A program made the position numbers and the translations under genes. The notes beneath the pieces were generated by a model. It did no database searches and was not told the DNA's origin. It worked only from the letters and a program-made list of their open reading frames with translations. From positions 1,798,001-1,862,000 of the forward strand of contig CM065881.1 in NCBI GenBank assembly GCA_033439255.1: DNA of 64,000 bases. Reading direction: 5' to 3'. Below are positions 16,404 through 61,566 of the stretch, in pieces. Within the stretch, counting starts at the first letter, position 1; each line of letters begins with the position of its first letter. Source of the stretch: Hericium rajendrae (lineage: Eukaryota > Basidiomycota > Agaricomycetes > Russulales > Hericiaceae).

Positions 16404-16443
16404 TAAGGCAATGGTCTAAGCAAGGGTCTCTACCTCGTTTATG

Positions 16444-31312: not shown

Positions 31313-33168
31313 AATTACCTTGCAAAGAAAACTACTAATGGGAGTTAATTTCATCTATGACTAAACACTATGCAGGAAAATTATCTTTATGTATAGGAAT
31401 GCCTGTCATGCTCAAACACAATGAAGCAACTGAGATGTGTGTTACCAATGGAGCTGAAGGTGTGGTCGTAGGATGGAAGTGTCATACTGGTATTGATGAT
31501 AAGCTTGTGTTAGATGTAGTCTTTGTGAGATTGACTTGTGCACCTAAGCCAGTGCAACTCACAGGGCTGCCTCTTAATGTTGTTCCTATCTCCAGAGTTG
31601 AAGAGAAAATCAAATGCTTTATGCCCAATGATAAAGAAATATGGATTAGTAGATCTCAGATTCCCATCCTACCTAACTTTTCAATGACAGACTATGCTTC
31701 TCAAGGAAGAACACGACTATTCAATGTTGTTGATATTCAAAATTGTAAGGACCAAAGAGGAGTCTATACTGCTCTCTCAGGAAGCTCAAGTATTGCTGGA
31801 ACAGCCATTCTTCAGCAGTTTAATACTGACAAAATTAAAGGAAGACTCCCTGGATATCTAAGATCAGAATTTAGAGAGCTTGAGCTATTAGATGAAATAA
31901 CTTGTCTTCAATATTACAAGAAACTTCCTGCAATCATTGATGCTCCTACTAGAGCAGCTCGCATCCAGCAGTATCAAATGTGGAAAGGAGTTGACTATGT
32001 CCCACCAAATGTGCCTGCTCCACTCAAATGGACAAAATCAGATCCTTTTGAACTTCTTCATAACACAAAGAATGCAGAATGGACAATTTTAGTCAAACAA
32101 AAGACTAATACAATTAATAAAAATAGTATAAAGGAGCCTGATAATCTTAAGAAAAGAAAGCTTGTAACATTTGAAGAGAAGCCAGATAGCTTTGATACGG
32201 CAAATGGAACAAAAGCATTAGATCAGGTTAGTAAAGAAGCTGCTGATAAAAGAAAGATAAAAAAACAAAAAACCAGTGGTACTTCAAAGGTAAAAGTTTC
32301 TTCTCCTACTATTGGATTGAAATGGTGTGGTCAAACTTGGAGCTGTGCATATGATACATTGTTTACCATCCTTTATCATATTTTTAGGACAAAAAGAGAT
32401 CTTTGGGAAGATCACTTAGCAAATTTGAACAATTACTGTAGTACATTGAATAATGAATGGACTCACTTGGAACATTCTGACTTTGAGTTAGTAAGAAAAA
32501 ATGTTAGAGCTTTGCTCACACAATTTGACCCTATCAAATTTCCTAATACACAAGGAGTGGGAACTGATATCAGAGAGTTAACCTCTGTTATACTTGCATG
32601 TCAAACAGATGTAGGATACGTAGAAGACAATTGTACATCTTGTGAGTATTCTGTGACTGAAAATGTTCATAATCTTGTATGGCATATTTCTAGCTTGTCT
32701 GCAGACTCAAATACTGCGAGTGAATTAGGAAAAATTATGAATGGAATTAGTATGAAAAAATGCCCTCAGTGCAATAGTGCACTTCATACTACTACTGTTT
32801 TTACCAACAACAGTCCACCATTGATAGCAGTAGAACTTGACTATCACAACATTAAAATAAATCACTCATTTACCATGAAGCATCATACAAATAATGAAAA
32901 GACATCATTCAAACTGGTGGCTATAGTGTATTTTGGAGATGTTCATTTTACTGCAAGAATTATTGACAAAGGAAAAAGAATCTGGTACTATGATGGAGTA
33001 ACTACTGGTAGGCAATGTGAGTTTGAAGGTATGCTGTCAGGTTTTGATAATTTGCATTATGCAAAAGAGCGAGAAGCAAGTTTACTTATTTATGCACCTT
33101 AATGACTAAATAAATAAATAAAAAAGGAATCGTCTTGCCGTGCGAAGCATCAGCCCTCTCCCTCCAAG
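31313..33168 (+). mobile_element. Helitron 3' fragment, second copy
   Basis: Matches the 3' quarter of the Helitron at 8928-16474 nearly base for base. It begins mid-gene where a family A head has inserted and ends at the normal 3' terminus (GGAATCGTCTTGCC, stem-loop, CCTCCAAG then T at 33169). Confidence 0.85.
31357..33102 (+). pseudogene. Helitron helicase C-terminus plus USP-like peptidase, 5'-truncated
   Basis: 581 codons corresponding to residues 1444-2024 of the larger copy, with about 10 amino-acid differences by eye. Motif V here is the normal YASQGRTR, but the motif VI arginine is changed (TALSGSSS). The peptidase part keeps the candidate Cys (WSCAYDTLF), His (DVHFTARI) and Asp (WYYDG), and has a clean CxxC...CxxC pair (CTSC and CPQC), whereas the larger copy reads FTCC at the first site. 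The Rep and Walker regions are absent, so it cannot transpose alone. The ATG used by the open frame is an internal Met, not a real start. Confidence 0.85.
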
Positions 33169-33171
33169 TTT

Positions 33172-34180
33172 AGAGGTGGAAGTTGTTTGTAAAACATTGT
33201 CATAAGGGGATCAATCAACGTAGCAATGGTGACATTGCAGCCCTCTGGAATTCTGAAAGAAGAATGATTTAGTATTCCGATAGATGTGACAATAACATAC
33301 AGATTGTCGTCCATCACGTCCAAGTCAATGTTGTCTTGATTCTCTTTGTTTTCATCTGTGCTCTTCTGCACGTCATCAGAAACCATTGCATCTGTAGCAT
33401 CAGCAGCTTCGTCGTCTAGAAAGACATCCTTTGATCTATAATGTGTAGGCAAATCAGCAATCATTCTACAGATAAAACTGTACAACATACGTCTTCTGAG
33501 GATTAACCTCCTTAATCGAAAATGGACTGCCAAGTACAATTATAAAGCTAAGCAAGCTTGGACTATGCATGTGAAGAATACAATAAAATCACGTACTCAT
33601 CATCCAATATCAAGGTATGCTCTTTTCTGCAAAGACAACAATATCAAGAAAGCAAATGTATGAAAAAAAACATATAAGTACTTCTCATTTATCTTCTGTT
33701 TCTTTGGGGCAGAAGCAGTCCCATTATTGTTAGTCATTTCTGATGTTTTGCGTAAGCGAAGAGGCTCTCTTATTCTTATGTTAATGCATATCTAAACAGT
33801 AAAAGATAAAAAAAACTCACCGATCTGCTTTAGCCATCCGTTTAAAATGTGTAGTCAATGGAGTCTGCAACTCTGGCCTACGCACAAAATAGTCAGAAAA
33901 GTATGAAACAAAATTCCAAAAAGATAAGTGTACTCTTCATCGGACTCGAACACTGGCTCTTCCAAAGCTCTCTTTCTACTGTCAATGGCATTAGCCCAAT
34001 CATATAATTGCACAAAATAAAGACATACGAGTTCATAGAACCTACTAGTGAGCTAGCCAGAGATGACGTCTGGCTGAGTCCCTTGGGAGCCGAAGGTTGA
34101 ACGGTCATCTTGGGCTTACGAACAGGGGTGGAAGGAAGAGCAAGGACCTTGTCCTTGTTGCTGCGAGACCGAGTATTCAT
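33172..34180 (-). pseudogene. Hypothetical nuclear protein, truncated by a Helitron
   Basis: Start ATG at 34178-34180 (MNTRSRSNKDKVLALPST). Several short exons with GT-AG introns follow: SRKRALEEPVFESDEEYTY, then LTTHFKRMAKADR, a short KKQKINEK exon, and an acidic exon with FLDDEAADATDAMVSDDVQK. The last visible exon (LYVIVTSIGILNHSSF) runs into the Helitron 3' end at 33168. The highly charged N-terminus with KRKR-like runs suggests nuclear localisation. No domain is recognised. MxTRSR starts are shared with the companion gene of the Plavaka element (39813), but I cannot show homology beyond that. Confidence 0.5.
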
Positions 34181-34746: not shown

Positions 34747-34779
34747 CATCAGAAACCCTACAAACTTTCTGATTGTATC

Positions 34780-35130
34780 TGATTGGACCTGGCAGCAAGA
34801 TTCAGACAAGTCAGGCAGTCAGACAGGTGTAATCTTACAGATAAGATCAGATTTTATATCTGACTCCAGATTTCAAGTCTGACTTCAGATTTCAAGTCTA
34901 ACTCCAGATTTCAAGTCTGACTCCAGATTTTGTATCTGAATTCAGATTAAAGTCTGAATTCAGATTAAAGTCTGAATTCAGATTAAAGTCTGAATTCAGA
35001 TTTTAAGTCTGACTTCAGTTACAAGTCTGATATAAGGACTTAGTCTTGTGTAAGAATTTAGTCTTATATCAGAATTTAGTCTGATATAAGAAAGTAGTCT
35101 GGTATAAGAAATTGATCTGATATCAGACAT
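34780..35130. repeat. Left subterminal TCTGA array of the Plavaka element
   Basis: Tandem TTCAAGTCTGACTCCAGA and AAGTCTGAATTCAGATT units, then ATTTAGTCTGATATAAG units. Likely transposase-binding repeats by analogy with CACTA-type elements (inference). Confidence 0.7.
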
Positions 35131-35317
35131 CAATCTTGCATTATCCATTTGGCTCAAATCACACTCAAAGGAAGATAACTGCATCTCTAAATTTAGCAGA
35201 TTAAAAGATATAGTAAACTAAAAAGTGTGGTTAGAGACTCAAAAGGTAGGCATAAAGGTAGAGAGAAATGCATAAGAGATAACTGGAGTACTAAAGATAT
35301 CAAATGCAAAACAGGTC

Positions 35318-38300
35318 TCAATCACTAAAATTACCATTCTTGAGGGCAACACGCTGACGAGACCCTGGTGAACCCTCCACATTATTAGCTGTCTCATCCT
35401 CCTCAGGCAAGAACTCTGCCACTCTAGAGTATATCAGATGCCACTTAGCTCTATCGATGTCTTCACAGATGTTTGACCACTGTTTGGTTGGCATGTGCCA
35501 GCGCTTGGTTGCAAACCACCCCTCTGATCTCCACTTAAGCTTGGGATGGTCAGTAGATCCAAATAGCAGGTGGCGTGACAAGGCACGCTGAATCTAAGAC
35601 ATCATGAACAAAATGTCAATCAAATAAAATCAAACATACAGCACACATAGTCAAGGCCATAGCTCCGATAGGAGGCTGGTCTCGACGAAGATGGTTTGGG
35701 AGAATTATTGTCCCAACATGTGCTTTTGCAAATGTCCAAGCAACAACAGTCGACAGAAAAGCACCATGATATGTCTGAAAGAAACAATTAGATTACAAAC
35801 TATAAATAAGGAGAAACTTACTATATGACCATCAGATGCATTTTCAATCTTCTGATAGATAAAGGGGATGTGATCATCCCCCACTGTGTTCTTCAACCCG
35901 AGGCAGATTCGAGCAATGTCATCCCTCACTAAGCCCTCAGGATCATCTTCCATATCAGAAAATCGAGACATGAGATCGGCAACGGCCTCTACAGCCTCAA
36001 TGGCAAACCCACTCCGCCACTCATATGTGCATTGTAAAAGCTGTAGTACATCTGTTAGCGCAGTGATATGGGTATATACAAGAAACTTACTATCGCAAAC
36101 ACGGCCTCTTGCTTAGCCTCGAGCTTGTGTGGAATGTGGGGAAAAATCTTGTCCCAAAGTTGTTGAGCAGCATCAAGCAGATCACAAGTAAGCCATGGGT
36201 CAGACCGTGTACCCAGAAACTCCCGCCACATGTGAAGGTAATACTGTCCCCACTTCTCCAAACAACGTGGAGGCAAATCTGAGTTGTTGTATAATTTGCG
36301 TGGCTTGCGCGGACCATTTTCATCATCAGTGTCATCTTCCTCTGATAAGTTCAGGCCTTGTGCAGGCTCCAACGAGCTGGTGGAGTCCTGTTGACCAGTT
36401 GCAGACAAAGATCGAGGTGTTGGTATCATTATAGATTGTGGGGGGCCAGCATCACTTGCCGCGCGCGAACGCTGTGAAAACGTAAGTATATGCAACTAGC
36501 CATGAGTAAAAACGTACAAGGCAGATGGTGCACAAACATACCATAGAACGTGATGGCTCTGGAGTCTGTGGAGGTGCAAAGGGCTCGTCGTATACAATTG
36601 GGTTTATGCATACAGACTATGAAGGATATGTCAACATGATACTGGTAGCTCACATGGACTAATAAATACATACCTTCTTACTGCCAGTGGATGGCTGCCG
36701 TCTCGGAGAAGACCGCCTGTCGCTCGTACGAGCAGGTGTGACAGCACCCAGTTGACCATGGTGCTTGACACTCGTAAATGGGTTGATAACGCGCAAAGGG
36801 TGGCCCCCGGAGTTGACACCAGGCATGTTCGAGGTTTCAGGATGTTCGGTGGAGGCAGAATGTTGGCCTCGAGGCCCATCCAAGTCGACACCCAAAGGCG
36901 CACGATGTTCAACAATGACAGAGACAGCAGATTTGGGGTGTTGGAGGCCACCTGAGTCAAGATCGAGCCTCCTGGAGGCTGCACGGCCTGAAAAAGAGGC
37001 AGAGGGGGCAATATCAGGGCTTTTGCGGCCACCCAAGTCAGAATCGAGCCTCCCAGTGTTAAAATCAACCCCGCCGGAGGCTATGTGACGTTGAGGTGGG
37101 ACGGAAGGGGTGAGATCAATGTGCTGACGGCCATCCGAGTCGACATTGGGCTGCCAGGAGGTTGTACGGTGTCAAGGGGAGGCAGATGGGGCATAATCGG
37201 GCTGCTGGGGGTCATTGAAGGTGACACCATCCCTCCCGGAGGCTGCACGACGACTGGGAGAGGCGGAGGGAATGAGTTCGGACTGCTGGCGGTCATCCAA
37301 CTCGAAATCGTGCTGCCCGGAGGCTGCACGACGACCGGCGGAGGCAGAGGGAGCGAGTTCAGACTGCTGGGAGTCATCCGACTCGAAAGAGGCTGCACGA
37401 CGTCGAGGGATGGCAGAAGGGGCGAAATCGGGCTGCTGGGGCTCATTGAAGGCAATATCGTGCCTCCTGGGGGCTGCACGACGACCGGCGGAAGATGGCT
37501 GCCAGTGGTGGCCGTCCGACTCAAAATCATGCTGCCCGGAGGCTGCACGACGGCCGGCAGAGGCGGAGAGCCCAAGATCGGGTGGGGGCCCATCCAACTC
37601 GAAACCGTGCCTCCTGGAGGCTGCAAGACGATCCACGGAGCTGGAGGAAGCGAATTCGGGATGTTGATGGTTGTTCGACTCGAAATTGTGCTGCCCGGAG
37701 GCTGCACGATGACCGGCGGAGGCGGACGGTGCAAGTTCGGATCGCTGGCAGCCATCCGACTCGAAATCGTGCCTCCCAGAGGCTGTACGGCTTCGAGGGG
37801 AGGCGGAGGGGGCGAAATCGGACTGCTGAGGGCCATCGAAGGCGATATCGTGCCTCCCAGAGGCTCCATGACGACCTGCGGAGGCGGAAGATGCAAGTTC
37901 GGATTGCTGGCGGCCATCCGACTTGAAATCATGCTGCCCGGAGGCAGCACGACGGCTGACGGAGGCGGAAGGCCCAAGATCAGGGTGCTGGAGGACACGG
38001 GAGTCGAGATCGTGCCTCGCAGAGGCTGCACGGTCAGCAGAACGTACTGGTGGGTATCCCTCATCACTGTTGTATCGTACCTGTGCGAGGCTCTAATGAT
38101 GTAGGTGTGATAAGTAGTTTGAATACAAAAAATGAGAACATTACGCACCTTTCCAGACCAGATTTGAGGCTCCTCAGACCCCTCACGATCTGGCCGTTCC
38201 TCTATGAAGTCGTCAAAGAACTTAAATGACGTGCCCGCATAGCCATCGATACTGTCTTCACCCTGAGGCTCAGCCTCCAAGCGAGTCTTGCTGTCCCACG

Positions 38301-39813
38301 TTGAACGAAGTCCCGACTTCTTATTGCTTTTTGAAGGCGGTTGGTCGGACCTCGGAGCGAAACGTCGAGTGATGCGAAATGGAGGTACATTGGAGGTTAA
38401 CGAAAGGAGGAGAGAATGGGCGAGCATCGAGAAACGATGCAGAAGGTCGAGATGAAAAGGATAATAGACGCCAGTAAGTACAAGCGCCGAACAATCGAAC
38501 AATCGAGTGAAAACTTACTGATGAGATAAGGCAATCGAGGCAGCATGCTGCTCTCGCACCAACGCCCGCATCTTGATCTTCTTTGCCTTGCGTCCTCCAC
38601 CTTGATTGCTTGTCTTTCCGCCCTTGTTCGTGTTCTGACCCTTTTGCTCAGGGCCCAGAATCTTGATTTCCTCGTCTTTTTGCCATTGTTTTTGCTTTCC
38701 CTTTCTCTTCTTCCTCTTCAAGGCTTCGCTCTCGCTTACGTCGCTCATTTGGACATCGGAATCTTCATCGCCGCACGTTTGTGGGTGGTAATTCGAGTCG
38801 TTGCCCGAGTTACTGTCTGAGATTGCAGAGACAGTGATCCTAGGTGAGTTTGATAACCCTGTAGATATCGAGCCTAACAACTTACCTTCCTCCGATCTCT
38901 GTGCTTTGTAGTTCCTTGCCTCCTCTTCCAGTCGACCTTGGCGCCGTTTCTTGGTGGCCTTCGACTTCGGCACAAAGTCCCCATCCATTCCAACTTCCTG
39001 CTCACTTCGCTGCTCGTCGGCCATCTCAGTCTCAGCGTCTTAGCTGCCCGAATCAAGATTCTTGCGATGTACCTCGATCTCCATATCATCTTCACCTCCC
39101 GCATCGTCGTCTATCGCACTCTCCAACTTTTGCAAGTCCTTATTGATCACAGTCTTCGTGACTGCATATCTGTGTAAGTCATCTACATTTTAAAATCCAG
39201 CGTAAGACTTACCTTTATCTACGTCCATAGCTTGCGAATCATCCTCATCAACTTCATCAACCTCATCGTATGCACGCGTACGTGCTGCTGTGCTCTTCGT
39301 CTTGGAAGACGAGGCCCTCCCTGGTTGTTGTCAAGAGGTCAGTACATGGCCGTTCGCTTTTGATAACCGTGATACTAACCTTTTTGTATCATTGAACTCC
39401 CTCCGTGTGCCTTCGCGTTGTCTTTCCTGCCATGCTGACCCACCGATAATGACTTCGGGCATCATTCTTGGATGCTGCTTTGACTTGATGGCTACGGCGG
39501 CATCAGCTGCACGTTTTGTCACCTCGAATTGCGATATCTGCCAAGCGGTAGCTTGACGTCGAGTGTGCTGCTCAGCTTCGTTGCGAGCCCACGTCTGTGC
39601 TGCAATTTCAGCCTTCTTGATAGGCCTGGGTTTCGGCTTTGGTTTCTGAGTCAGGGGTGGTGCTGGGTCAGCCTGACCATCGGAGGACAACTGAGCTTTC
39701 GCCTTCTTGACCGGCGCGGACTTCTTCTTTGGGGACTTCGGGAGCTCTTCATTATTGGAGGACAACCCCGCATCACTGTGAGTCCGCTTCTTATCCCTTG
39801 ACCTAGTTATCAT
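35318..39813 (-). CDS. Plavaka companion gene, multi-exon, function unknown
   Basis: Leftward coding segments inside the Plavaka borders. First exon from 39813: MITRSRDKKRTHSDAGLS, Lys/Pro-rich. Then acidic DEVDEVDEDDSQAMDVD, a block from 39024 (MADEQRSEQEVGMDGDFVP) with Lys/Arg-rich KKRKGKQKQ, a repeat region (37040-38060), and a folded-looking C-terminal part: CLEKWGQYYLHMWREFLG (36230-36290), WRSGFAIEAVEAVADLMSRF (about 35960-36020), YHGAFLSTVVAWTFAKAHVG, and WKWRSEGW-like LKWRSEGWFATKRWHMP (35480-35540). Exon limits and whether this is one gene or two are not resolved; one junction near 39040 has an in-frame stop. The charged N-terminus suggests a nuclear DNA-associated protein. I know no domain for it. 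Its place inside the transposon implies an element-encoded accessory role. Confidence 0.5.
37040..38060 (-). repeat. Coding minisatellite, 27-residue unit
   Basis: About 11-12 units of roughly 81 bp (some shortened to about 69-70 bp), recognised by recurrent GGAGGCTGCACGACG on the plus strand. In the companion-gene frame each reads like SASAGRRAASGQHDFELDDR. Spacing in multiples of three keeps the frame open. Most spacings fall at 80-82 bp. Confidence 0.8.
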
Positions 39814-40119
39814 AATGATAGAGTGTGTAGATTAGTAACAGGAGCAAAGAAGTGTACGACGTAGCCTGTTGAGTGTCGTATGGGCAGAGACGAAGAGTGA
39901 CACCTTTGTCACAGTACTACGCGTGTGTCAAGTTCTGCGCAGCACAACCAAACATCTTCTGCCACTCCGGACTTGGGCGCACAGCTCTCTTGGGCACGCG
40001 CACATTACTGGACTGCTAGTACCTTGTGTTTGTGAAGGCTTACAATAATATAATCTAGTATCAACAAGTTGCTGGCAGCCTACTACTTCAAGTTAACTAG
40101 GTGACTTGTGCATAGTATT

Positions 40120-43066
40120 ATGGCTAGCTCGAGATCTCGCACGAGTTCACACAAGGCTCGAAGCTATGCCTGCCCAGTACCAACTAGTTGGCGTTGTCGT
40201 CAGGGCTTTGTGACTCTAAGGGGACTAACACAACATATTCATGCTGCTCATCCATCATATAATTCTTCTGGGTCATCTCAGACAAATGTGTTCAGTCAGC
40301 CTTATGATCCCTTTGTGCCCAATATTGCAGACACCATTATTGGATCAGATAATGAATCTGGATCTGCTCATTCTTATGAGAGTACTTCCAATGGTCCAAA
40401 GTCATATACTCATCCAATTCTTGATGGTCAGCCTTGTGATGCTCAGGGTGCTGATATTGATGCAAGCATATCACCTGATGATCTTGAAAAAAAATCTTCT
40501 AATGACTGGTCTCCATTTCGTGATCGAGTCCAATATACTGTTGCAGATTTGCTCTTTCGTCGAGGACAGACATCTCAGGATTTTACAAATGACTTAATGG
40601 ATGCATGGGCTGCAGATCATAGCAATAATGCTCCACCTTTTGCCAATCAGAAGGAGATGTTAAAAATCATAGATGCTATTGAGCTTGGTGATGCACCCTG
40701 GCTGCATTTTACTATAACATATGTTGGTGCTATACCTGAAGAGGATCCTCCTGCATGGATGCTTGCAGAGTATGATGTGTGGTATCGGAATCCAAAATGT
40801 GTGATCCAGAATCAATTATCCAATCCTGATTTCAAAGATGAGATTGATTATGCTCCACGGAAAGAATATAATGCCAAAGGCAAGAGAGAATGGTCAGATT
40901 TTATGACAGGAAATTGGGCATGGCGTCAAGCAGATAAAATTGCAGAAGATCCTGAGACTCATGGATCTATGTTTGTACCTGTTATTTTGGGCAGTGATAA
41001 AACAATAGTATCAGTGGCTACAGGTCATACAGAATACTATCCACTTTATGCATCTATTGGAAATGTGCATAATAATGTTCGGCGTGCACATCGTGAAGCT
41101 GTTAGCATACTTGGATTTTTAGCAATTGGAAAAACAGATAAACAGCATCAAAATAGTGTTCCTTTTCAAAAATTTAGAAGACATCTTATGCATGAGTCAC
41201 TTAAAGTTATCTTGGAACATTTACGCCCAGGAATGTCCAAACCAGAAATTGTTTGCTGTGCTGATGGACATTTTCGAAGAGTGATTTATGGAATTGGTCC
41301 ATATATTGCAGATTATCCTGAACAGTGTCTAATGTGTGGAATTGTTCAAAACTGGTGTCCACACTGTACATGTTTACCTAAGGATTTGGATACTGGTGAT
41401 GGTTTTCCACGATCACATGAATATACCTGTGTATTAATAGAAGCTAAGCTAACCAACAAAGAATTGTGGGAAGAATACAGTATTGTGGCAGACTTTATGG
41501 TATGTAATTAACATTGTTTTGAATGTTTATTTGAGTCTAATTTAAATCTTTCTTTTTAGCCATTTACACATTCTTTTCCTCGTGCAGATATTCATGAACT
41601 TATATCTCTGGACTTGCTTCATCAGCTTATTAAGGGAACATTTAAAGATCACTTGGTGACTTGGATTCTTGAATATCTTGAACTTCTTCATGGACCAACT
41701 CAGGCAGCTATAATTATGGCAGATATTGATCGAAGAATTGCTGCTGTACCTTCATTTCCAGGACTACGTCAATTTCCTGATGGTCGTAACTTTAAACAAT
41801 GGACAGGAGATGATTCCAAAGCTCTGATGAAAGTATTCTTGCCAGCAATTGAGGGTCATGTGCCTTCACAAATGGTCCGGACAATTCGTGCATTTTTAGA
41901 TTTTTGTTATCTTGCTCGAAGATCAATGATAGATGAGAATACTTTGGATGCCATGGATATTGCTCTTGAAACATTTCATAGAGAACGTAAAATCTTTGAA
42001 GTAGTAGGTGTACGCTTGGAAGGAATATCACTTCCAAGGCAACATTCTTTGCAACATGATCGTCACTTGATTGAGGAATTTGCAGTTCCAAATGGACTTT
42101 GCACCTCTATTACAGAATCCAAACATATAAAGGCTGTTAAAGAGCCTTGGAGAAGATCTAGTGGCTATAATGCTTTGGGACAAATGTTACTTACAAATCA
42201 GAGACTTGATAAACTTAATGCTTGTACACAGAATTTCATAAAATGTGGCATGTTAGATAGACCTTTAGGTTCAGTTCAAACTGAGAGTTTGGAGACTTCA
42301 AAACAAGCACGCACATTTTTTAATGGAAATTAATAAAGTTTTACTGAGTGACAACTTTGGTCAAGAGATTGAAATTGGTGTCAAACTTGCAAAAACACAT
42401 GCACGAAAATATCCTCGAACACTTGACCAAATTGCTGCATTTATTGGCAGGCCAAATCTACCTGATTATATTCGTCAGTTTTTGTTTGATCAAAAAAATG
42501 TGACTTCTGATTATACATCATTAAATGTTGATATCTCAAAATGTCCATTAGCTCCAGAAAAATTGAATATCTATCACTCTGCAATGGCTACATATTATAC
42601 ACCTAGTGATCCATCAGATGTGAAGGGCATTCATTGTCATCGCATTCGATCAGCACGAGACTGGTATGGAAAAGGCTTTTCTCGTCAAGACTGTGTCTTT
42701 ATCAAAAATGATCCTACTTTACCTGGAATGAGAGGACTCTATGTTGGCCAAGTCTTGCTATTTTTTTCATTTGATGATGAAGAAATCACTTATTCATGTG
42801 CATTGATCCAATGGTTTGTAACTGTTGGTGATGAACCTGATGAAGATACAGGGATGTGGATGGTTGAAAAAGAAGTAGATGATGATGGAGAATATGTGTG
42901 TTCAGTGATACATACTGACTGTATTCTAAGAAGTGCTCATTTGATTGGTGTTTCTGGTGAAGAGTTTCTTCCTTCTAAATTTAAACATATTCACTCTCTT
43001 GATGCCTTTGCTTCTTTTTATGTTAACAAATATTCTGATTATCATGCTTTTGAAATTGCTTTCTGA
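40120..43066 (+). CDS. Plavaka transposase
   Basis: ATG at 40120 (MASSRSRTSSHKARSYACP). Exon 1, 40120-41499; 60-bp intron 41500-41559 (GTATGT...TTTTAG); exon 2 from 41560. The N-terminus has a C2H2-like zinc finger (C...RC...LTQHIHAAH). The RNase H-like catalytic region includes PVILGSDKTIVSVATGH (Asp about residue 293), the diagnostic YASIGNVHNNVRRAHREAV, VCCADGHFRRVIYGIG (Asp about residue 382) and a Cys cluster (CLMCGIVQNWCPHCTCLPKD). Exon 2 continues PFTHSFPRADIHELISLD, LIKGTFKDHLVTWILEYL and ESKHIKAVKEPWRRSSGYN. The C-terminal part (42323-43066) has GMRGLYVGQVLLFFSF, DTGMWMV and ASFYVNKYSDYHAFEIAF. A frame change occurs around 42315-42330, next to a T-run, so the last part is not joined in the plain reading. 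Function: cut-and-paste transposition in the nucleus. Confidence 0.88.
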
Positions 43067-43189
43067 CCTTTTTATACTAGTAAAATACAACTTCCTGTAT
43101 TTAATATTCAAAGTTGTTACTGATTATCATTTTTATAGTATCCACAGTAGTAAACTAACTTATGACTATCCATACTAGTAATTTTGTTT

Positions 43190-43610
43190 GATCTGATATT
43201 CAGGTAAGATCTGACCATAAGTATAGATCTGAGAAGTACAAATATATATGATTGACCTGAAGAGATTACACCTGTCTGACTTGTCTGACAGTAGAAAATC
43301 TGAAGAATATACAAAATCTGATTGTATCTGAGAAAATTACACCTGTCTGATCTGTCTGACAATTAAAAGTCTGAAGAATATTCAAAATCTGATTGTGTCT
43401 GTAAGATTACACCTGTCTGATTTGTCTGACAGCAAAAAATCTGAAGAATATATAAAATCTGACAGTATCTGAGTATGATTCTATATCTGATGAAATCTGA
43501 CTCTGTCTGACTTGTCTGTAGGCTATTGTAGTCAGAAAATACTAAATTTTCAGATTTATAAGGTGATCAGACAGAAAAAGATAAAATCAGACTAAGCAGA
43601 AAGTTTGTAA
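43190..43610. repeat. Right subterminal direct repeats of the Plavaka element
   Basis: Three near-identical units of about 75-80 bp containing ATTACACCTGTCTGA followed by TGTCTGACAG and AAAATCTGAAGAATAT (from about 43250, 43335 and 43405), then TCTGA-rich DNA to the terminus. Candidate binding sites for the transposase. Confidence 0.75.
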
Positions 43611-43621
43611 GTTTTCTGATG

Positions 43622-44430: not shown

Positions 44431-45681
44431 ATGTCTCTACCTTTGATTGAGTTTTTAGATAAGCCAGATTGCCGTAAGTGATTAGTGTTTTGTCTCTGTA
44501 TGGTTTGTCGAATGAATATGTAGGAGCACATCTTATGAAGATCAGTGATGATGCTGTAAAGCAGTTACCACGTCATCTTCAACTCAGCAATATGTCTGAT
44601 GTGTGTATTCATACCTTACTATTGTTGGGATTCAGCTAACTAGCTTTGTTAGATGAAGTTCTTGAGAGAGAACTATGTCGCACATAAAGCCGTAGATGGA
44701 TCTGCAAAGGTTGTGTTGCGAAACTCGGATCTTGATGCAGAGATGGAGGAAGCCATCTGGGAAGGACAAGGTGTCTTGTTAGACTATGACTTGCCACCAA
44801 TTTTGGATCGCAACAGGTGTGTTATTATCTGCTTTTGTCGTCTTTCTCTTTGCTTAAAAACATATGACAGTCTACCTACGAAGATCATTTGGGTGAAACA
44901 GAGCATTCGCCTACTAGGAATAGGATCTCCTCTCTTTGATCAATCAGTTGCCGGTGTTGCAGCTATCCATCGTCTCATAGATAGCATCTATTCTGTGAAG
45001 GGTCTCAGACCATGGGTTCCTGATCAAGTTGAGAGTCATGCAAGCCTTAGCTTTGCCAACCGTTACGTCACTCCTCTCTCACTTGTCAACGGCTCAAGTC
45101 CTGTATCCTTTGGGGACGTCGTGGATCCACAAGGCCTCTTGCTACTGGCCACATCTACTGCAGGTGCTCATCTTGATGATAATAAGGTTGAGTACTATGA
45201 AAGAAAGTGGAACAGCACGTACGTCAACTCTATGCCGACTCTTGCATTGTATTTTACTAATGTTAAAACCTCTAGATCTTCTGATTATCACTATATCACC
45301 ATTGATCCAGCTATCATTCGACCTGGTCAGATTGTTCAGGTGCAAGTGTCTTTTGTTACAGTACCTCTGTCTGGAAAAAAAGGGTTGTATCAGATGGCAT
45401 GCAAGTTGCGATCTGTAGCTATTCTTGATCGTCAATTGCAAGAGGTAAATTTGTTTGTATCTTTGTATAGATGACACTTACAGATAGATTGTTACTAGGC
45501 CTATGATATGCAAGCATACTCTATTGAGTTTCAGAAGAAGGCATCTCCTCCAAAGGTATTGAAAAGGTGCATTGGATATGTGGTCTCAGTTGACGCTATG
45601 TCAAGAGAGGTGAAGAAGACAAAGAGCACGGTCGTAGAAGGCTTAGAGGACACCTTTATGCAAGATTCTAGTTCTGCGTAG
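44431..45681 (+). CDS. Hypothetical protein, apparently intact six-exon gene
   Basis: ATG at 44431 (MSLPLIEFLDKPDC). GT-AG introns of about 50-60 bp follow: after the first short exon (GTAAGT near 44474), after QLSNMSD (near 44600-44652), after PPILDRN (44818-44872), near 45217-45275, and near 45445-45498. The last exon ends at TAG 45679-45681 (MQDSSSA). Readable segments: NYVAHKAVDGSAKVVLRNSD, KIIWVKQSIRLLGIGSPLFD, LRPWVPDQVESHASLSFANR, IIRPGQIVQVQVSFVTVPL and YQMACKLRSVAILDRQLQE. The G-Q-I-V-x-V-Q-x-S-F pattern resembles a recurrent agaricomycete hypothetical family; function unknown. No break is seen in any exon, unlike most of the window. It lies head to head with nothing and tail to tail with the leftward gene ending near 45805. 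Confidence 0.7.
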
Positions 45682-45804
45682 ATCAATATTGTTTGTCGTG
45701 AAGTGTTTTTTTTGGATTGTCTGTACACATGATACCTATTCAATATTTCATTCCATCCATCTGTCACGAGTTACTATAAGACAGATCAAATCAGAGTTGA
45801 TCAC

Positions 45805-48065
45805 TTATAAATATATAAGACATCTTACCAACTGCTCTAACCCAAAGTTCCACAGTCGAGATACTTTACATAAAGTATGTTCTAGCATAATAGGATCAAA
45901 CATCATCTTCTCTTTCTCTTCTATAGTCAGCCGTGCATCTAGAAAATGAAATAGCAAAACAAATGCATCTTTGATGACCATCTTGTTTTTCTCCTTAGGA
46001 TGGATCAATTGTAATTTTGCTAGGCCTTTCAGTGCTCCTGCTTGGATCTCTGATATAAGTTCACCCATATCATACTCTGATGGCATATCAATGACATCTG
46101 TATAAGCATAGTCTGCAGTGAGAAGATAAGCCACAAGTGGTCCAAAGCCATAGAACATGACTTCATTTGTTTTGGACTTTTTGTTTTTGATGCACTTGTA
46201 AAATGCTGCAAAGGAGCAATGTGCTGTTCTTTCCACCAAATTCTTCCATTCTATGTTTGCTGCCCTCCAATATTTCTCTGCATGTTCAACGCTACGCTGG
46301 GTTGGACAACCATAAGCTGTGGTGTCGCAGAAATAATTTGAGGATTTATTGGATTTAAGGCTGTCATAACAGGCTGACCAGTCTTCTAGGTCTGAAAACA
46401 TGGCTTTCTGATCCAAGACAAACTGGCAACCATAAGTGATGCCACGGAAGATCAGAGCACTGAAAAATCCAGCTTGAGAGTGAACATTTGTTGGCGAAAA
46501 AGGAGTATCATCTTCTCTCATCCTCACAAGGCTTGGTGCATGCTGACGAAAGGGAAGATAATGGTCAAGTCGTGTAGCCATTTTTGTAAGGAGGGCATGA
46601 TGTTCTGGAGGTGCACATTCTAGATCACCTGTAAAGGACAGCTCATTCTCCAAGGAACATCTATCCAGGAAGAATATAGCTGCATGCAGAAACTTTAAAC
46701 ATTTTGTGTAGCCAAGTGGAGGATGAGAAAATAGAGGAGGATGTGGTGAAGGGGAATGTCTCTCTTCAGACTGACTAGCAGTAGAGGGAATTGGCAAGGT
46801 CTCAATATGTTTACGAGCATCTTTGTTGAAACCAGAATATTGATCACAAACATCATTGATGGACATCAGGAGTTTATGCTCCTCGGTGTCTAGTATGACA
46901 ATAGCATGATGAGATAGCCAAGTTGAAAAATGTTGTAAATCATCTTGAGATACTGAGTGTCGTAGCTTTTTCTTTGCCACCATTGAACTAAATCCACAGA
47001 AGAGAACAAAAGTCTTTTCCAAGTAAAGAATCTCTATCCCTGTTTATCATGATGAGATATTATAAAATATTACTATTGATATATAAACATACCTGCAATA
47101 GAGACTAAATTCTGTACAAATACTGCTTGAGCAACAGCATGAGGAGAGACGGTTTGATCAGAATTTAACCATTGTCCTAAAGTCATTCGTAAAGATTGGT
47201 GAAGAAACTGTTTTCGAGGGCTAAAGTCAACAGAGCTGAGATCATTGCGACAAGGTGGGAGACAAATAACACTGGGCACAGTAGAAAGATTTGAAGTAAA
47301 ATGGGATGGTGTCAGAGTGATATTGTATGAATTAGTTGCATTAGCAGTAGCCAACAATATTCGCCCAAGCTTCACAATCCAGTTTTCTTCATCCTCAGCA
47401 TGGACATTCAAGACTTGATCTGCATAGTAGCTTGCAATATGATCAATCCATAGCCATGCTGTCATATGAGACATCATGACTATAAATTGATTGCAATGAG
47501 TGTCTAGAGATTGAAGTGCAATGTTATGAAGAAGATCAGAAATGTTTTGTAGGCCTTTCTGAACTGAAGGCAAAGGATCTAGACATCCAGGAGTGCATTT
47601 TTTAATAGCTGTTGCCATGTTGCTGAGGCTGATATGTGTAGATGGCCCCGAACATAACTAGAGGAGGATGCAGGAATGGAGTTCCTATGAGTAGAGAGTG
47701 CTTCCAAGTCATTTTTGAGTGATTCTACTGAAAAGTATTCTGCTCTTGATGTTAGACTCATATTGTTAACTAAAAAAAAAATTCTCCATACCTTTCCATC
47801 GTAAAATAGAAGAAAGCGGAATACCATCTCTATCATCAGATTCTTTTAAGGAAAGCATATCTTTAAAGCACTCTTGGCTCCAAGATAGGGTCTTCTCCAC
47901 ATTTGCAAGGCTTTTTTGTACTTGATCAGCACTGTTCTCCTCTTCTTGTTCATCTTCATTTTCCTGTTGTTCATCATCATGTTGTTCATCTTCATCTTGC
48001 CACTGATCTTCATCTGAAGCATCTCTCATTTCTTCATCTTCATCTTGGTCTTCATCTGATCTCAT
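45805..48065 (-). CDS. Hypothetical protein with acidic N-terminus
   Basis: A leftward gene starting at 48065 (MRSDEDQDEDEEMRDASDED). The first exon is extremely Asp/Glu-rich, then QVQKSLANVEKTLSWSQE. A middle part (47073-47618) reads VQKGLQNISDLLHNIALQSL, HMTAWLWIDHIASYYADQVL and LRMTLGQWLNSDQTVSPHAV. A large C-terminal exon (45805-47022) has LGYTKCLKFLHAAIFFLDRC, FFSALIFRGITYGCQFVLDQ, EVMFYGFGPLVAYLLTADYA and KDAFVLLFHFLDARLTIEEK. A GTAAGA donor near 45830 suggests one more small exon, so the exact C-terminus is open. No domain is recognised. It sits between the intact plus-strand gene and the candidate dioxygenase gene and may belong to the same accessory set. Confidence 0.6.
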
Positions 48066-48122: not shown

Positions 48123-48703
48123 CATCAGGAAGGTTAACAACTTTCTGATTGACCTGACAGTTTCTAACCCTACTGACAGCTCCTGATTGACCTGATCCAC
48201 CTGAAAGCAATCTTAACAGGCAAATATCTGATCAAACTTTTACATTTAAGTAAAGACATTTATTGTCAGATATATAAGTTTGTAATCTCTAACTAATAGA
48301 TATAACAAAATCTCTGATATCTGAAATTTTCTAAATCTGAGAGTGTCTGATCTGAGATTTTTTTCAAATCTGGAGGTCAAATATCTGAAAATTATCTGCA
48401 ACTGTCTGAGAGCATCTGATGGTGTCTGACACTGTCTGATCCATCTGACTGATATTTGACCTCCAGATTTGAAATCAGACACTCTCAGATTTTCAAAAAT
48501 TTCAGATATCAAAGATTTTGATATATCTATTAGTTAGAGATTAAAAACTTATATATCTGACAATAAATGTCTTTTCTTGAATGTAAAAGTCTGATCAGAT
48601 ATTTGCTTCTCAAGATTGCTTTCAGGTGGATCAGGTCAATCAGAAGCTGTCAGTAGGGTTAGAAATTGTCAGGTCAATCAGAAAGTTGTCAACCTTCCTG
48701 ATG
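48123..48703. mobile_element. MITE1, 581-bp foldback copy, reverse orientation
   Basis: Ends CATCAGGAAGGTTAACAACT and AGTTGTCAACCTTCCTGATG with AT duplicated (48121-48122 and 48704-48705). Its left half equals the complement of the right half of the copy at 512-1092, showing opposite orientation. It lies at the very 3' end of the gene to the right, three codons before that gene's former stop. Confidence 0.9.
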
Positions 48704-51123
48704 ATAATTCACCCTATGGCACAATCTCTTGCTTCTTCGTATTCCTTCTTCATTGTCATCTTCTCTGGTCCTTTTCTTTCCTTTGTCTGATGTTTTTTGC
48801 TTATATGGAGAAATAAGTGCATCTGCTACCGATTGTATTTTCTTGTTTATGTTGGAACGTGTTTTCAAACTGCCAACAGAAAAGTGCTTAGGTTTGCGTA
48901 GTTTTGCTATTACAAAGATAAAATGTTGAGCAATTAGTCTTAGCTAATGCACCATAAGTTAATTACTACCTGGCTTAGATCTTGTATAGGCCTTTGTCTT
49001 TCCTATATAAAAGATAATTTAGTTGAATCTCATTTATATCAAAAAAATGTAAACACACCTCCCAAATAACTACCACCTAACACCTGAGACTCTAATGGAT
49101 TATCTGGATCAATGAATAGCTTTGGGAAAGACTTGTGATTGCTGGGCATAAGATTGTAGTTTTGAATTAACCATTCTTTCCATCTTTTCAGGACAAGATG
49201 TCTTGGATCTTCTACCACTTCTTGGCCATTTGTAGCAGATGGAACCACAGTGATAGGAATAGTATCAATGTTATTGATATGCACTGCAACTTGACCAGGT
49301 GCTAGAGCCCAAGTTTTTGCAACATATCGATGAGATGAATTTGAATCTGCTGATTTGATGCTAAAAGCAGAAACAAACTTGTCAACATCAATTTGAACCT
49401 ATAGAGTGAAATATCAATAATCAACAAAATAATCAAGTAAGAACAACAAACTTGAAGCTTGGGCCAGATCTGTGCACATATGAAAATACACAACAACAGA
49501 AGATGTCGTACAATAAAATCAAGTAAGGAGTCAGGCTGCATGATGATGTGTCCATCTCTAGCCCAGCTACCCTTGCCAGCATTGACGGGATTATCTGTAG
49601 TGTCACTTCTATCCTCTGGACTACATTTACAAAGATAAATCAATATATATAGCTTTAATATTACAAGTAGAACTCACTAATATCTAACCTCAGGACCTAA
49701 AGGTAAAAAGCCTTCCTTTGATGATTTTGAGGACCAAGCGCACAAAGGTAAGATGCCTTTCATATTATACAAGATATCGTTTGGATAACCAATAGCATTG
49801 AGGCGAACTGTAGTCTTCAAGGCCGATGTTGATGTTCCTAAAGGAGCCTTTGGAGAAGTACCACCATGCATAAGCAAGCCTGAAAAATAACAAGCCAAAG
49901 TATCCTCTAGCACGATGAAAACACCAAGCTCTAGCAAGTGAAAGCGACCAGGATCGTATCCATTTTTAGGATACTTGGAATGAGAAACCATAGCAGTAAA
50001 AGCTCCAAGGGCATCATATCCATCTTTATGTTTGCCACCATAATGACCAAGGATAGATGCAAGATCCACATCTATGTAGATATTAGTTTTGAATCTTTGT
50101 TATATTCATTTTAATTTTACTAACCTGCTTCAGAAGTAGTGGCATTTGAGATATTTACTTGCATGGCCTGGGTCATAAAATTGTCTGACGATCCAATTTT
50201 GGGAAAAGGATGCAAGTCTGCAAAAGACTGAACATAATTTTGTATACCTGGCAAGCATTTATAGCCCTCTGAAAACAAGCCAGTAGTTGCCTATACAGCT
50301 TTAGCCAAATTGATATCAGAAAGATCTTATAAACCTACATCCAATAGTTCTTTAGACATCTTCTGTGCATCTGTCAACTCTCCACCTTTCTCTAACTTGC
50401 CATTTTTTGAAGGCGCAAAAAGATGTGGTGGCTTTTGATGGGTTGGTCCAATCTGATATGTTCTACCGGATTTGTCTGGCAGGATACCAGTACGCTCAAA
50501 AGCAGTACCACCCATTAACGTTTTAGAATTTGAATCCCAAATAGGCATTGATGCTGTACTCTCCTCCTCTTCTCCAAGAGCATTTTTCAATGCCTGTTGC
50601 AAATGCTTCATTTTTTCTGAAGAGAAAAATTTTCTATCACATAAAGTTCTTGAATTAGTATAGTGATACCAAGCTAAAAAGTTTAAACAACATACCCTGC
50701 TATCATGGTTCCCTGAAAAAGATCCTTCTTGCCTGTCACATCTCCATCTTGTTGCGATCGTACAAACACCATGTCACCAGAATTCAACTGAATCAAGCCT
50801 GACAAATATTATTTCTATTAGTAGCTGTATAAAAATGTGAGCAAAATACTCACCAAATTTGTCTTTCATCTCTCTAAGGTACCCCGAGGTACTCCAACCC
50901 GAGCTGCATACTCCGCATTTTTCTGCTTGCCTGCTGAACTTGTATCCACTATGCACACATATGTTGTACCATCCTTGAATGTATTGTACAAAGGATCGTC
51001 GCTATTCAAAAAGTTCTTTGCATGCAGAGGATGATCTGGCTGTATGCCAATAGGAGGAAGTTCAGAATCTTGACCATGTAATTGTAATGATTTTAGATCA
51101 TTTGGTAGAGTTTGAGAAGTCAT
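48704..51123 (-). CDS. Candidate TET/JBP-like 2-oxoglutarate/Fe(II) dioxygenase
   Basis: A leftward multi-exon gene from 51123 (MTSQTLPNDLKSLQLHGQDS). Exons with GT-AG introns encode LIQLNSGDMVFVRSQQDGDV, SRTYQIGPTHQ-like GRTYQIGPTHQKPPHLFAPS, FSEGYKCLPGIQNYVQSFAD and TTSEA, then after a 53-bp intron (50072-50124) the core: GHYGGKHKDGYDALGAFTAM, YDPGRFHLLELGVFIVLE, CYFSGLLMHGGTSPKAPLG and TTVRLNAIGYP. The HxD (codons 50030-50022), a second His 54 residues later (49868-49866) and an Arg 21 residues after that (49805-49803) fit the Fe(II) and 2-oxoglutarate ligands. Later exons end in a basic tail (KKRTREDDNEEGIRRSKRL). The frame near 50885 is not cleanly resolved. If the assignment is right it would oxidise 5-methylpyrimidines in nuclear DNA. 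An unrelated dioxygenase-fold family is the main alternative. Confidence 0.55.
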
Positions 51124-52149: not shown

Positions 52150-53275
52150 GCGAATGGCTCGACCGCACTCCGTTCTGGCCCAACGGCCTCACTTCCGGCC
52201 CCGGGGCTTCGAGCACTGCCCAGGGCAGTTGCAGCTGGCATTTTGCCAGCTGCGTAAGGTGCGTAGATCTTCCACATCATACAGATGCAGAAACATCGTC
52301 ATTTGGTGGCATTTTTGCATTTGCATGACCCGGGTCAGGTTCTGCACGGTGCGGGTAGCTCCCACATGCTGTGCAGGGCCAGAAATGTCACCTTTTGGTG
52401 ATGTTTCTGGCTGTGCATGACACGTTTCGTGTCCAGGACGTGTGGGTAGCACCCACACGTCGTACAGGCCCTAAATCGCAACCGTTTGGTCGCGTTTTTG
52501 GGTCTGTACGACCCAGACTTCTTGTGCACGGTGCGAGTACCTCCTGCATGCCATGCAGGGCCAGAAACGTCACTGTTCGGTGACATTTCTGGCTGTGCAC
52601 GACACGTTTCATGTCCAGGGCATGTGGGTAGCACCCACACGTCGTACAGGCCCTAAATTGCGACCGTTTGGTCGCGTTTTTGGGTCTGTACGACCCGGAC
52701 TTCTTGTGCATGGTGCGGGTAGCTCCCGCATGCCGTGCAGGGCCAGAAACGTCACCGTTGGTGACGTTTCTAGCCCTGTGCAACAGGTTCATGTCTGGGA
52801 CGTGTGGGTAACACCCACACATCGTACAGACCCTAAATTGTGACCGTTTGGTCGCAATTTTGGGTCCGTACGACCCGGACTTGTTCTCCATGGTACAGGG
52901 ATAGAAATGTCACCGTTCCGTGATGTTTCTAGTCCTGTACGAGATGCTTTGTGTCCGGGGCGTGTGGGTAGCACCCACACGTCATATGGACCCAAAATTG
53001 CGGCCATTTGCCGCCATTTTGGGTTCATATGACCTGGACTTGTTCTGCATGATGCAGGACTGGAAACGTCACCGTTCGGTGACATTTCTAGCCCTGTACG
53101 AGAGGGTTTGCATCCAGGGCATGTGGGTAGTACCCACACGTCGTGCTGGCCCAAAATTGCGACCGTTTGGTCGTGATTTTGGGTCAGACTTCTGATGCTG
53201 GTGTGAGTATGCCCCACACGTCGTGCAGCTCGAAATCGTGACCGTTTGGTCTCGATTTCGAGTCTGTACGTTTCA
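52150..53275. repeat. GC-rich array of tandem hairpins
   Basis: About 1.1 kb built of alternating palindromes. The landmark ACCCACACGTCGTACAGGCC recurs near 52458 and 52636 and in diverged form near 52814, 52973, 53134 and 53213, so the unit shortens from about 178 to about 160 and then 80 bp. Each unit holds two hairpins, for example AAATTGCGACCG-TTTGG-TCGCGTTTTTGGG and CCAGAAACGTCACCG-TTCGG-TGACATTTCTGG. Open frames across it exist on both strands and are a by-product of its composition. The right end is interrupted by MITE1. Confidence 0.85.
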
Positions 53276-53276
53276 A

Positions 53277-53526
53277 CATCAGGAAGGTTGACAACTTTCT
53301 GATTGACCTGACAATTTCTAACCCTACTGATAGCTTCTGATTGACCTGATCCACCTGAAAGCAATCTTGAGAAGCAAATATCTGATCAGACTTTTACATT
53401 CAAGAAAAGACATTTCTTGTCAGATATATAAGTTTTTAATCTCTAACTAATAGATATATCAAAATCTTTGATATCTGAAATTTTTGAAAATCTGAGAGTG
53501 TCTGATTTCAAATCTGGAGGTCAAAT
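53277..53526. mobile_element. MITE1, truncated copy
   Basis: First 250 bp of the 581-bp form, cut at AAAT by the Helitron beginning at 53527. The right part of the MITE is not found beyond the Helitron. Confidence 0.85.
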
Positions 53527-55588
53527 TACGATTCCTTAGAATCGTTTACTCTATACCGGCTTTTCCTATCGAAAACGACACCAAAACGATGACCATCCCC
53601 ATTTGGCAGTTGGCTTATATAATCACAAGTCAACAATCTGACGAGTTTGCAGGTTCAATTCCAGTTCAACCTTGAATTCTTTTCTTTCATTTTACAATCA
53701 ACATATCTCACTGTTACTGTTCACAATCATTATATAGAACATTTATATCTCATTATGATTTCTTGGAATCATTTACTCTAACTAATTTCTCATATAAAGT
53801 GAGGTTATAAGTTTGATTCTGCCAATTGCCATTCTTATAATTTTGGATATTTCTTAGAGATGTTCAGTCTTTCAAATCTAACTAAATCATTGTTAGACTA
53901 TATGCATATTTAAATCAATGCTAGTCATATTAGGACCAGAAGTTCTCAGTATGAAAAAGTGCAAACTTGTTACAAGATAGTGAATAAATGTACTTCATAG
54001 TAAAGTCTGTATCTTTTTATTGATGTAAGTGAGTGTGATATATGGTAATATAATGAGAGCAAATTTTACCTCCTCAGAACATCTGTTTTCATAACAATAG
54101 GTCCAGAAATGACTGAGATATGAGCAAATCACTTCAAAAGATATCCTTGAGAAGGAGATCATAGTGATTGCATTGTAGTGGAGCAATGAGTGGTGCTATA
54201 TACACGCTAAAGATACCGTTGGAAAGGTCTGATTTGCACCTTTCCAACGGCATATTATATAAGACGATCGGATAAGTATTGAGAAAACGCGGTAGCGATT
54301 ACTGAAGGGTTGGTATTAGAGGTAGGGGCAAACTTGTTGAGGCCATATCTTTTTATCGACTCATCCAATTGTAGTGTACCTAGTGTTGTTGAAAAGGCAT
54401 AATGGAGATCTTTCTGACGCAATCAAGGGACCGATGATATCTCCAGTACTTAAGGAGGTACACTCGAATTATCACAAAACCTCCTATTTGCCTATTTTCA
54501 AGGTCTTACATAATCCGCAGCACGGGCAAAATGACATACTCCCATCCCATGACATCATGAGGGGGACGGGAGTACGTCATTTTGCCCGTGCTGCGGATTA
54601 CATAAGCAATTTATAAGCAGGAAAAAATCGAAAAAATCATTCAAGTCTAGGGCAAATCATCAGATCATCTGAGAATAGACACATACTGAGTAGTATAAAA
54701 AATCAGTAAAAATCGTGTTAATATGGCCATCAATAGTACTATTCAGAAACACTTGAGTTGATGTTTATAGCTGGAGAATTGACAGAGATATAGCCAACTT
54801 ACTGATTCAGACCCCTAGAAGGCAAAAATAAAATCAATCTAGACAACATACAACAGTTGACAGACCTTCAAAGGCCACACTTATGTACTTCATAAATGTA
54901 AACACAATTAATGAGAAGTCACGTGCAACAGCAAGCCTGACCGAGCTCGCTGTTGCACGTGACCATTATTTTGTCATTAGTTCAACTCTTGCTGGTAGCA
55001 AAGTTTAAAAATAAGAGATAAGTGTAAAACAATATACTTTGAAGATGGAGATCTTTGCAGTATGACAATACTAGTATATTCAATTCTCTGTTATCTTATT
55101 AATTCTGTGAGCATAACACTACAAACATCAGGAACCTCCAAAACTTTCTGATGGATCCTGCAGAGTCTGATCAACTGCAAGATCTGATTCAGCTGCAGGC
55201 TCTAATTAGAGGACAATTTTTGATCAGAGATTTTATATTTTGAAGTCAATAACTATTGGCAGATATAGTAGTCATCCAACTCTAATCATTGGATGCAACA
55301 AAGTTTTCAATATCTAAAATTTATATGAATCTGATCAGTTCTGATCAGTCTGCAAGCATTCTGCATTGATACTTTTTTGAATCTTGAGGTCAAATATTCT
55401 GCAGCTAGCTGAGAGTAGCTGATGCTGTCTGAGAGTGTCTGATGTGTCTGATGCAACTGCTGCAGATCATGCAGACACTGTCAGATGCCTCGCAGGTCAA
55501 ACAGAAAGTTTTGAAGGTTCCTGATGAAGTTAGAACAATTTAAAAGGAATCGTATTGCCGTGCAGAGCATCGGCCCTCTTCCTCCAAG
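53527..55588 (+). mobile_element. Non-autonomous Helitron, second copy of the family A/B composite with nested MITE2
   Basis: Near-identical to 6861-8923, including the family A head, the internal family B head (near 53753), hairpins 1 and 2, and MITE2 at 55126-55526 with AA duplicates. It ends CCTCCAAG before T. The composite therefore moved, or was duplicated, as one unit after MITE2 entered it. Confidence 0.85.
55126..55526. mobile_element. MITE2, 401-bp copy nested in a Helitron
   Basis: Same position inside its host element as the copy at 8461-8861. AA duplicated at 55124-55125 and 55527-55528. Confidence 0.92.
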
Positions 55589-55671
55589 TTCTGTGAGAAT
55601 AACACTACAAAGTTAGAACAATTCAAAAGGAATTGTATTGTCATGCAGAGCATCGGCCCTCTTGCCCCAAG
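55589..55671 (+). mobile_element. Tail of an older family B Helitron
   Basis: 83 bp reading TTCTGTGAGAATAACACTAC through the 3' stem-loop to GCCCCAAG before T. It is a partial second 3' end directly after the first, as left when one Helitron inserts between two T residues near the 3' end of another. Confidence 0.75.
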
Positions 55672-60239: not shown

Positions 60240-61566
60240 ACACTGTCCCGAAGCTCACAGCCAATGGCTCGAACTAGGTGATGTACAAAACCTGCATTGT
60301 GACCATGATCGGAGTGAAAGGTTTGATGCACCATCTGAGAGGCACCGCCAAGGAACCAAAGGAACCATTGACATCACTCGATAAAGACAAAAAGGATGTT
60401 GGAGCAGGCCAAAGGGACACGACGCAAGCCCTGGGATAGTGGCAGGATGAGGAATGTGCTACCACATGCTATCTCTGATCTATCTCTATGCTGACTAATC
60501 CTCTGCCTCTAGCGGTGCTACCACGTGATCTATGCCTCTCAGACCCCCTGATCTCCCACTCCAATGTCAATCTGATGACCAAGCAACTGAATGATTACAA
60601 AGAAAAGTGGGACAAGTGGCTCCAACAGGAATACACCATCAAACAACAGATCTTCTTGATGATCACCAAATCACTCCTTTCATGCATGCAAGATCTTGAT
60701 CGTGCACACAAAGTATGGTCTGCCATACTTGTAATGAATACAAGGGCAAGACCAAAATGATCCAAATCAATCTCTGGTGATGGCTCCAGGAGACACGTTG
60801 TCAACTCAGCAGCGACGTTCATGAGCACTTCAATTTGTTGCTTTGCATGAAGGAAGAATTAGCAGGCATGGGGGCTAAACTAATTGACACCAATTTCACT
60901 GTCATAATTTTATCCTTGCTCCCCACTGACTACAATCCTGTCCTCTCAGCAATGCTCTCAGCTGCTTGTATCACTGGAAAGACCATCCTGCCAATGATTA
61001 TCATTTCTCACGTCGATGAGGAATTTGATCACCATGTAATCAAGGCCCAGCTCAACAAGGTTGATACAGTGCTCATCGTGGGATCCGATCCAAAGAAGCA
61101 TGGCACTAGCCAAGGCATGTGTGGCAACAGCAATGGCAGCAGCTCTGGCACGAAGAACAATGTCAAGTGCTTGAACTGCAGACACCATTTTCACAGCACC
61201 GCTGATTGCTGACAGAAAGAAGGCAGAAAGGAGGGGCAGGGATCCAATAGGAAGGACAAGAGCAGCAGGAAAGACAAGGACAGCAATGGGAAAGGTACAG
61301 CAAATGTGGCTGCCACCCTCGAGACCCATTTTGCTTTCTCAGCACTAGCTGCCATGGTTCCCGACTCGGCGCTGATGCAATGCATTGACATCAGCACCAG
61401 TCACCACTACTCCTCTTTCTGATCAGAATTCTTGAACTTCCATCAGATTGCACCTAAACCGATCATCACCGCTGACAAGCATGTCTTCTTCATGACAGGC
61501 TGCGATGATGTAATTATTACCTTCCCAAATGATGACACAGTCACCAGGATCACCCTGAAGGATGTA

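Follow-up and report, generated by a model that had tools for sequence, protein, structure and literature searches.

On the minus strand of the window, by which we mean the whole 64-kb stretch of Hericium rajendrae DNA that was analysed, lies a nine-exon gene that runs from 51123 to 48689 and can be read without interruption through 652 codons, giving a protein of 652 amino acids. Its central exon carries the residues of an HxD...H...R motif, its last two exons encode a basic tail, and its 3' end runs into a small palindromic transposable element. Below, we describe the gene model and its surroundings, and then weigh what kind of protein the gene may encode.

Structure of the motif-bearing gene

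All eight introns of the model are of the GT-AG type, measure 48-84 nt and are matched in every phase. An earlier note had placed an exon at 49677-50069 and given no strand; this exon is real and belongs to the minus strand, where the motif-bearing open stretch at 49680-50099 corresponds to exon 5, with splice-site limits of 50071-49678, while the plus-strand reading of 49677-50069 contains 11 stops. By itself an open stretch of 140 codons is not rare, as 11 were encountered in 30 simulated 10.3-kb sequences. For the exons scored, the frame used in the model is the sole stop-free sense frame in seven of eight (exon 6 has a second open one) and has the highest codon-usage score in all eight; codon usage was trained on the Helitron and Plavaka ORFs of the window, and exon 8 (33 nt) was excluded from the scoring. 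Together, the matched-phase GT-AG introns, the uninterrupted 652-codon reading, and the frame and codon-usage scores of the exons support the conclusion that the gene is real. No second copy of it was found within the 64-kb window.

The exons, all on the minus strand, were compared with those of an automatically generated exon chain. Exon 1 (50883-51123) opens with an ATG at 51123 and ends at a donor, GTACCT, that is off the usual consensus; a better donor, GTGAGT, lies 29 nt downstream but breaks the frame. A frameshifted version of exon 1 was also considered and dropped, as the GTACCT donor gives an open reading without a frameshift. Exon 2 (50696-50798) has GT-AG borders and matched phase, and is given other limits by the automatic chain, while exon 3 (50339-50633) agrees with the chain in its 3' end and frame but differs in its 5' end. 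Because the automatic chain set different limits in this part of the gene, the first ~115 residues of the protein are uncertain. Exons 4 (50125-50290), 5 (49678-50071), 6 (49452-49620), 7 (49059-49398) and 9 (48689-48906) are the same in the chain, which ends exon 8 (48970-49002) at 48967, three bases longer. The basic tail suspected in the earlier note is borne out: it begins in exon 8, continues through exon 9 and comprises 83 amino acids with a pI of 10.5 and 24 lysines and arginines versus 8 aspartates and glutamates.

Transposons and neighbouring genes

The surroundings are dense in transposons, with at least five classes in the window (Plavaka, Helitron, a trace of KDZ, Copia-type and hAT). 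The presence of a Plavaka transposase (40105-42333) is, judging by its profile match, certain (Pfam E 1.2e-107, with the C-terminal part also matched). It is contained in a complete-looking element on the plus strand (34747-43621), which has PlavakaB-like ends, CATCAGAAACCC at 34747 and TTTTCTGATG ending at 43621, with 22 of the 24 terminal bases alike and TA on both sides. These ends and the 2-bp duplication agree with those given for PlavakaB in PMC12730594. The element also contains further ORFs and, upstream of the transposase, an 81-bp GC-rich tandem array (37235-38032). The nine-exon gene (48689-51123) lies outside this element, 5 kb beyond its end at 43621. KDZ-associated domains (CxC2/CxC1) were detected in one ORF (5747-6163; CxC2 E 3.9e-37), apparently a fragment, which is ~43 kb from the gene; the Pfam scan covered 46 of the 145 window ORFs of at least 80 aa, and there was no other KDZ signal among the 46 scanned. 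The description of the gene as sitting beside KDZ and Plavaka elements does not hold up: a Plavaka element is present but stops 5 kb before the gene, and the one KDZ trace among the scanned ORFs is distant. The Plavaka element, the KDZ-associated domain and the shortness of the introns point to a fungal host.

A palindromic MITE (48123-48703) has inserted where the gene ends; it has Plavaka-type ends (CATCAGG...CCTGATG) and is flanked on both sides by AT, its target-site duplication. The final codons of exon 9 and the stop codon fall within this MITE and are thus derived from it. Palindromic MITEs with Plavaka-type ends occur at 512-1092, 4139-4339 and 53277-53526 as well. The copy at 512-1092 is 99% identical to the one at 48123-48703 and in opposite orientation, while that at 53277-53526 is only half a copy and breaks off close to a repeat insertion (53519-55589). 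Three palindromic elements, the MITE at 48123-48703 being one, have CATCAGGAAGG at both ends and 2-bp duplications of CA, TT and AT. Elsewhere in the window are a Helitron (8994-16415; Helitron_like_N, PIF1 and DUF6570) with a partial copy at 31314-33172 that is 97% identical, a Copia-type gag (60781-61209) and a hAT dimerisation domain (19175-19621). A tandem array of ~91/182/159-bp GC-rich units with short inverted repeats (52343-53185) lies upstream of the gene.

The interval between the Plavaka element and the motif-bearing gene (44431-48065) is occupied by two convergent genes with no assigned family. The nearer one (45805-48065, minus strand) was modelled by the automatic chain with four exons, and none of its four ORFs scanned matched a Pfam family. 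The second (44431-45681, plus strand) had its end set by eye, the automatic chain extending it to 45890, and its longest ORF matched no Pfam family. A comparison of 38.0-40.1 kb on the left with 43.05-53.6 kb on the right, using four end motifs, revealed no ends of a unit enclosing the gene and these two neighbours, nor did the general repeat listings of the window.

The HxD...H...R motif and its comparison with Tet proteins

In a single open stretch, exon 5 encodes GGKHKDGYD, then FSGLLMHGGT and then an arginine. The HKD occupies residues 283-285, the distal histidine is residue 337 (54 after His283) and the arginine is residue 358 (21 after His337); the residues and spacings of the earlier note were thus all recovered within 49680-50099. 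An HxD...H...R arrangement is common to the whole superfamily of 2-oxoglutarate/Fe(II) oxygenases. The bare motif is weak evidence, because, at loose spacing, 366 of 20000 shuffled versions of the exon (1.8%) contain it, as do 5 of the 190 window ORFs of at least 70 aa, a Helitron ORF included.

A more informative comparison draws on further active-site residues that PMC11040006 names for CcTet and other Tets. Matched by offset, the window protein agrees at five of eight such positions, as does NgTet1 (the Naegleria Tet-like dioxygenase, PDB 4lt5/5cg8), a figure that is a guide and no test because the eight criteria were fixed after the residues had been inspected, two of them (HxD+13 and distal His+2) were relaxed to accept residues of a similar kind, and counting by plain offset is crude, PMC11040006 pairing CcTet Asp337 with NgTet1 Ser238, at +9 and not +11. 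Read in the same way, 5000 motif-bearing shuffles include 21 with at least five matches, and the other four ORFs of the window that carry the motif score 0, 0, 3 and 4. At HxD+5, where according to that source the residue contacts N4 of 5-methylcytosine (5mC) and hTet2 has Asn1387, the window protein has an aspartate, matching Asp234 of NgTet1 and Asp350 of CMD1. Likewise, its threonine at HxD+11 resembles hTet2 Thr1393 and its tyrosine at Arg+6 resembles hTet2 Tyr1902 (PMC11040006). The three positions that do not match are the glycines at HxD-3 and at distal His+2 and the asparagine at Arg+8.

Compared directly, the window protein and NgTet1 share HKDxxD at the first metal ligands, a distal histidine some 50 residues on (54 residues in the former, 50 in the latter) and an aromatic residue at Arg+6. 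They differ in the distance from the distal histidine to the arginine (21 versus 10), in the residue at Arg+8 (Asn versus His) and in the HGGT context of the window protein, which NgTet1 does not share. PMC12730594 describes TET/JBP genes carried by fungal DNA transposons of 11 lineages and sorts them into PU, AG and PE types, the PE type belonging to transposons of Pezizomycetes and Agaricales that include Plavaka. CcTet and the AG type, found on Kyakuja and Zisupton transposons, have the HxD, distal His and Arg in common with the window protein (PMC11040006, PMC12730594). The two histidines of CcTet (326 and 376) are 50 apart, and its His-Arg distance is 9 compared with 21 here. Where CcTet has Gly331 and Asp337, positions at which the AG type is described as having Gly/Ser and Asp, the window protein has Asp and Thr, as counted by offset from HxD without a trustworthy alignment. 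The PE type resembles the window gene in its transposon-rich setting and in being too divergent for ordinary profiles, but is reported in PMC12730594 to have HxE, whereas the window protein has HKD, which by that criterion sets it apart from the PE type, and its gene lies outside the Plavaka element. Members of the PU type, from transposons of rust fungi, share the HxD metal motif (PMC12730594).

Profile searches returned no 2-oxoglutarate dioxygenase. Against Pfam, the exon matched no family at E<=10 apart from an unrelated one at 0.22, and a 494-aa spliced part of the protein matched none at E<=10; the full 652-aa protein matched no family in NCBIfam or PHROGs; and searches of the PDB yielded nothing for the exon and, for the 494 aa, myosin only (E 0.7). 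Formally, this outcome goes against the earlier note. It decides little, because in a control search NgTet1 itself reached only E=0.087 against the Pfam Tet_JBP profile (PF12851), below the cut-off, so that the method would miss a distant Tet. Alignments to NgTet1 by Smith-Waterman (1000 shuffles each), by anchoring (20000) and by hhalign (20) were no better than those of shuffled sequences; in the anchored alignment, the exon was the top scorer among the five motif-bearing ORFs. The clustering of the H, D, H and R residues that structure prediction was meant to reveal could not be read from an AlphaFold model of exon 5 alone, which had a pLDDT of 35.7 and a useless fold, a failure we ascribe to the lack of detected relatives and the single sequence used as input. 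Within this very low-confidence model, two strands run into the distal histidine. An equally useless prediction was obtained for the neighbouring gene's long exon (pLDDT 39.5).

Searches for relatives gave no confirmed match in viral contigs to exon 5, exon 7 or the neighbouring gene's long exon, and none in genome contigs to exon 5. With tblastn, exon 5 found nothing in phages and two matches in plasmids (E 3 and 6). Matches to FSGLxxHGGTxP in two contigs of the viral collection were rejected as chance, having in-frame stops upstream and tblastn values no better than E 1.9. NgTet1 as a query found nothing in the viral contigs, and the PF12851 profile had no match in one plasmid record or 14 control genomes. 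Proteins of Agaricomycetes in which HGGTPP...AP is followed by a block containing DG may belong to one family with the window gene, and the neighbouring gene may have relatives in these fungi too; no conclusion here draws on this.

A putative oxygenase and its likely substrate

We propose that the gene product is a 2-oxoglutarate/Fe(II)-dependent oxygenase whose substrate is most likely 5-methylcytosine in DNA, and assign this reading a probability of about 0.5. A 2-oxoglutarate/Fe(II) oxygenase is the most likely identity of the protein, and it is perhaps TET/JBP-like. The TET/JBP label itself is neither confirmed nor refuted by the profile and structure tests, and the family assignment is unproven: of the earlier proposal of a TET/JBP-type oxidase, the HxD...H...R residues and some fits to a 5mC pocket stand, while profile and structure support did not emerge from these low-power tests. 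In such an enzyme, the iron ligands would be His283, Asp285 and His337, and Arg358 would bind the carboxylate of 2-oxoglutarate. The 5-methylcytosine would be flipped into the pocket, where Asp288 would contact the base and Tyr364 would stack on it. The basic C-terminal tail may keep the enzyme on DNA or chromatin, or may direct nuclear import. Oxidation of 5mC would then weaken silencing by cytosine methylation around the transposons.

The base composition of the region bears on whether such a substrate exists there. The ratio of observed to expected CpG has values of 0.30 in the gene, 0.23 in the adjacent gene, 0.36 in the Plavaka transposase and 0.14 in the Helitron; GpC in these stretches stands at 1.1-1.2, and TpG/CpA is raised. 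This depletion is uneven, the ratio being 0.53 for the second neighbour, 0.68 for the whole Plavaka element, 0.91 for the tandem array and 0.51 for the whole window. Depletion of CpG without loss of GpC is expected where CpG is methylated and mutating, so the region may well contain the substrate proposed here.

A rival explanation is an oxygenase of another branch, that is, a protein, RNA or small-molecule hydroxylase from a fungal accessory family with no action on DNA. In its favour are a motif common to the whole superfamily, no TET-specific profile match, and a 21-residue Arg spacing and HGGT context that differ from NgTet1. Against it stand the fit of the Asp at +5, the Thr at +11 and the Tyr at Arg+6 to the Tets and the basic tail, both of them no more than suggestive; we consider this explanation rather unlikely. 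It is unlikely that the four residues fell into this arrangement by chance in a protein of another kind and that the gene product is no oxygenase at all: the fit at the active-site positions is as good as that of NgTet1, and two strands lead into the distal histidine in the very low-confidence model, to be set against the frequency of the motif in shuffles (1.8%) and ORFs (5/190) and the lack of any alignment signal with NgTet1.

It is also improbable, in our estimate, that the gene is the decayed remnant of a former enzyme of this kind, a scenario compatible with the other readings, so that the odds do not sum to one. The poor GTACCT donor of intron 1, with a better GTGAGT that breaks the frame, and the stop codon supplied by the MITE would be in keeping with decay, whereas the model is open in full, the catalytic exon is uninterrupted and has coding-like codon usage, and only the last few codons have been replaced by the MITE. 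A bolder version of the preferred reading, an oxygenase acting on 5mC, would place the gene in a further fungal TET/JBP-like lineage beside PU, AG and PE, carried with the two unassigned genes outside the Plavaka element. We regard this extension as doubtful; such a lineage would combine a conventional 5mC pocket (HxDxxD, Thr at +11, Tyr after the Arg) with a long insert separating the distal His from the Arg, and with a basic tail.

That TET/JBP genes are carried by fungal transposons is already in print (PMC12730594). At its strongest, the case made here is therefore for a further member or branch of a known kind of enzyme, with no new principle involved, and we make no claim that the family itself is undescribed. 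If its product does oxidise 5mC, the gene would be a further case of selfish fungal DNA carrying its own anti-silencing enzymes, and would provide an HxDxxD example that departs from the pocket of CcTet.
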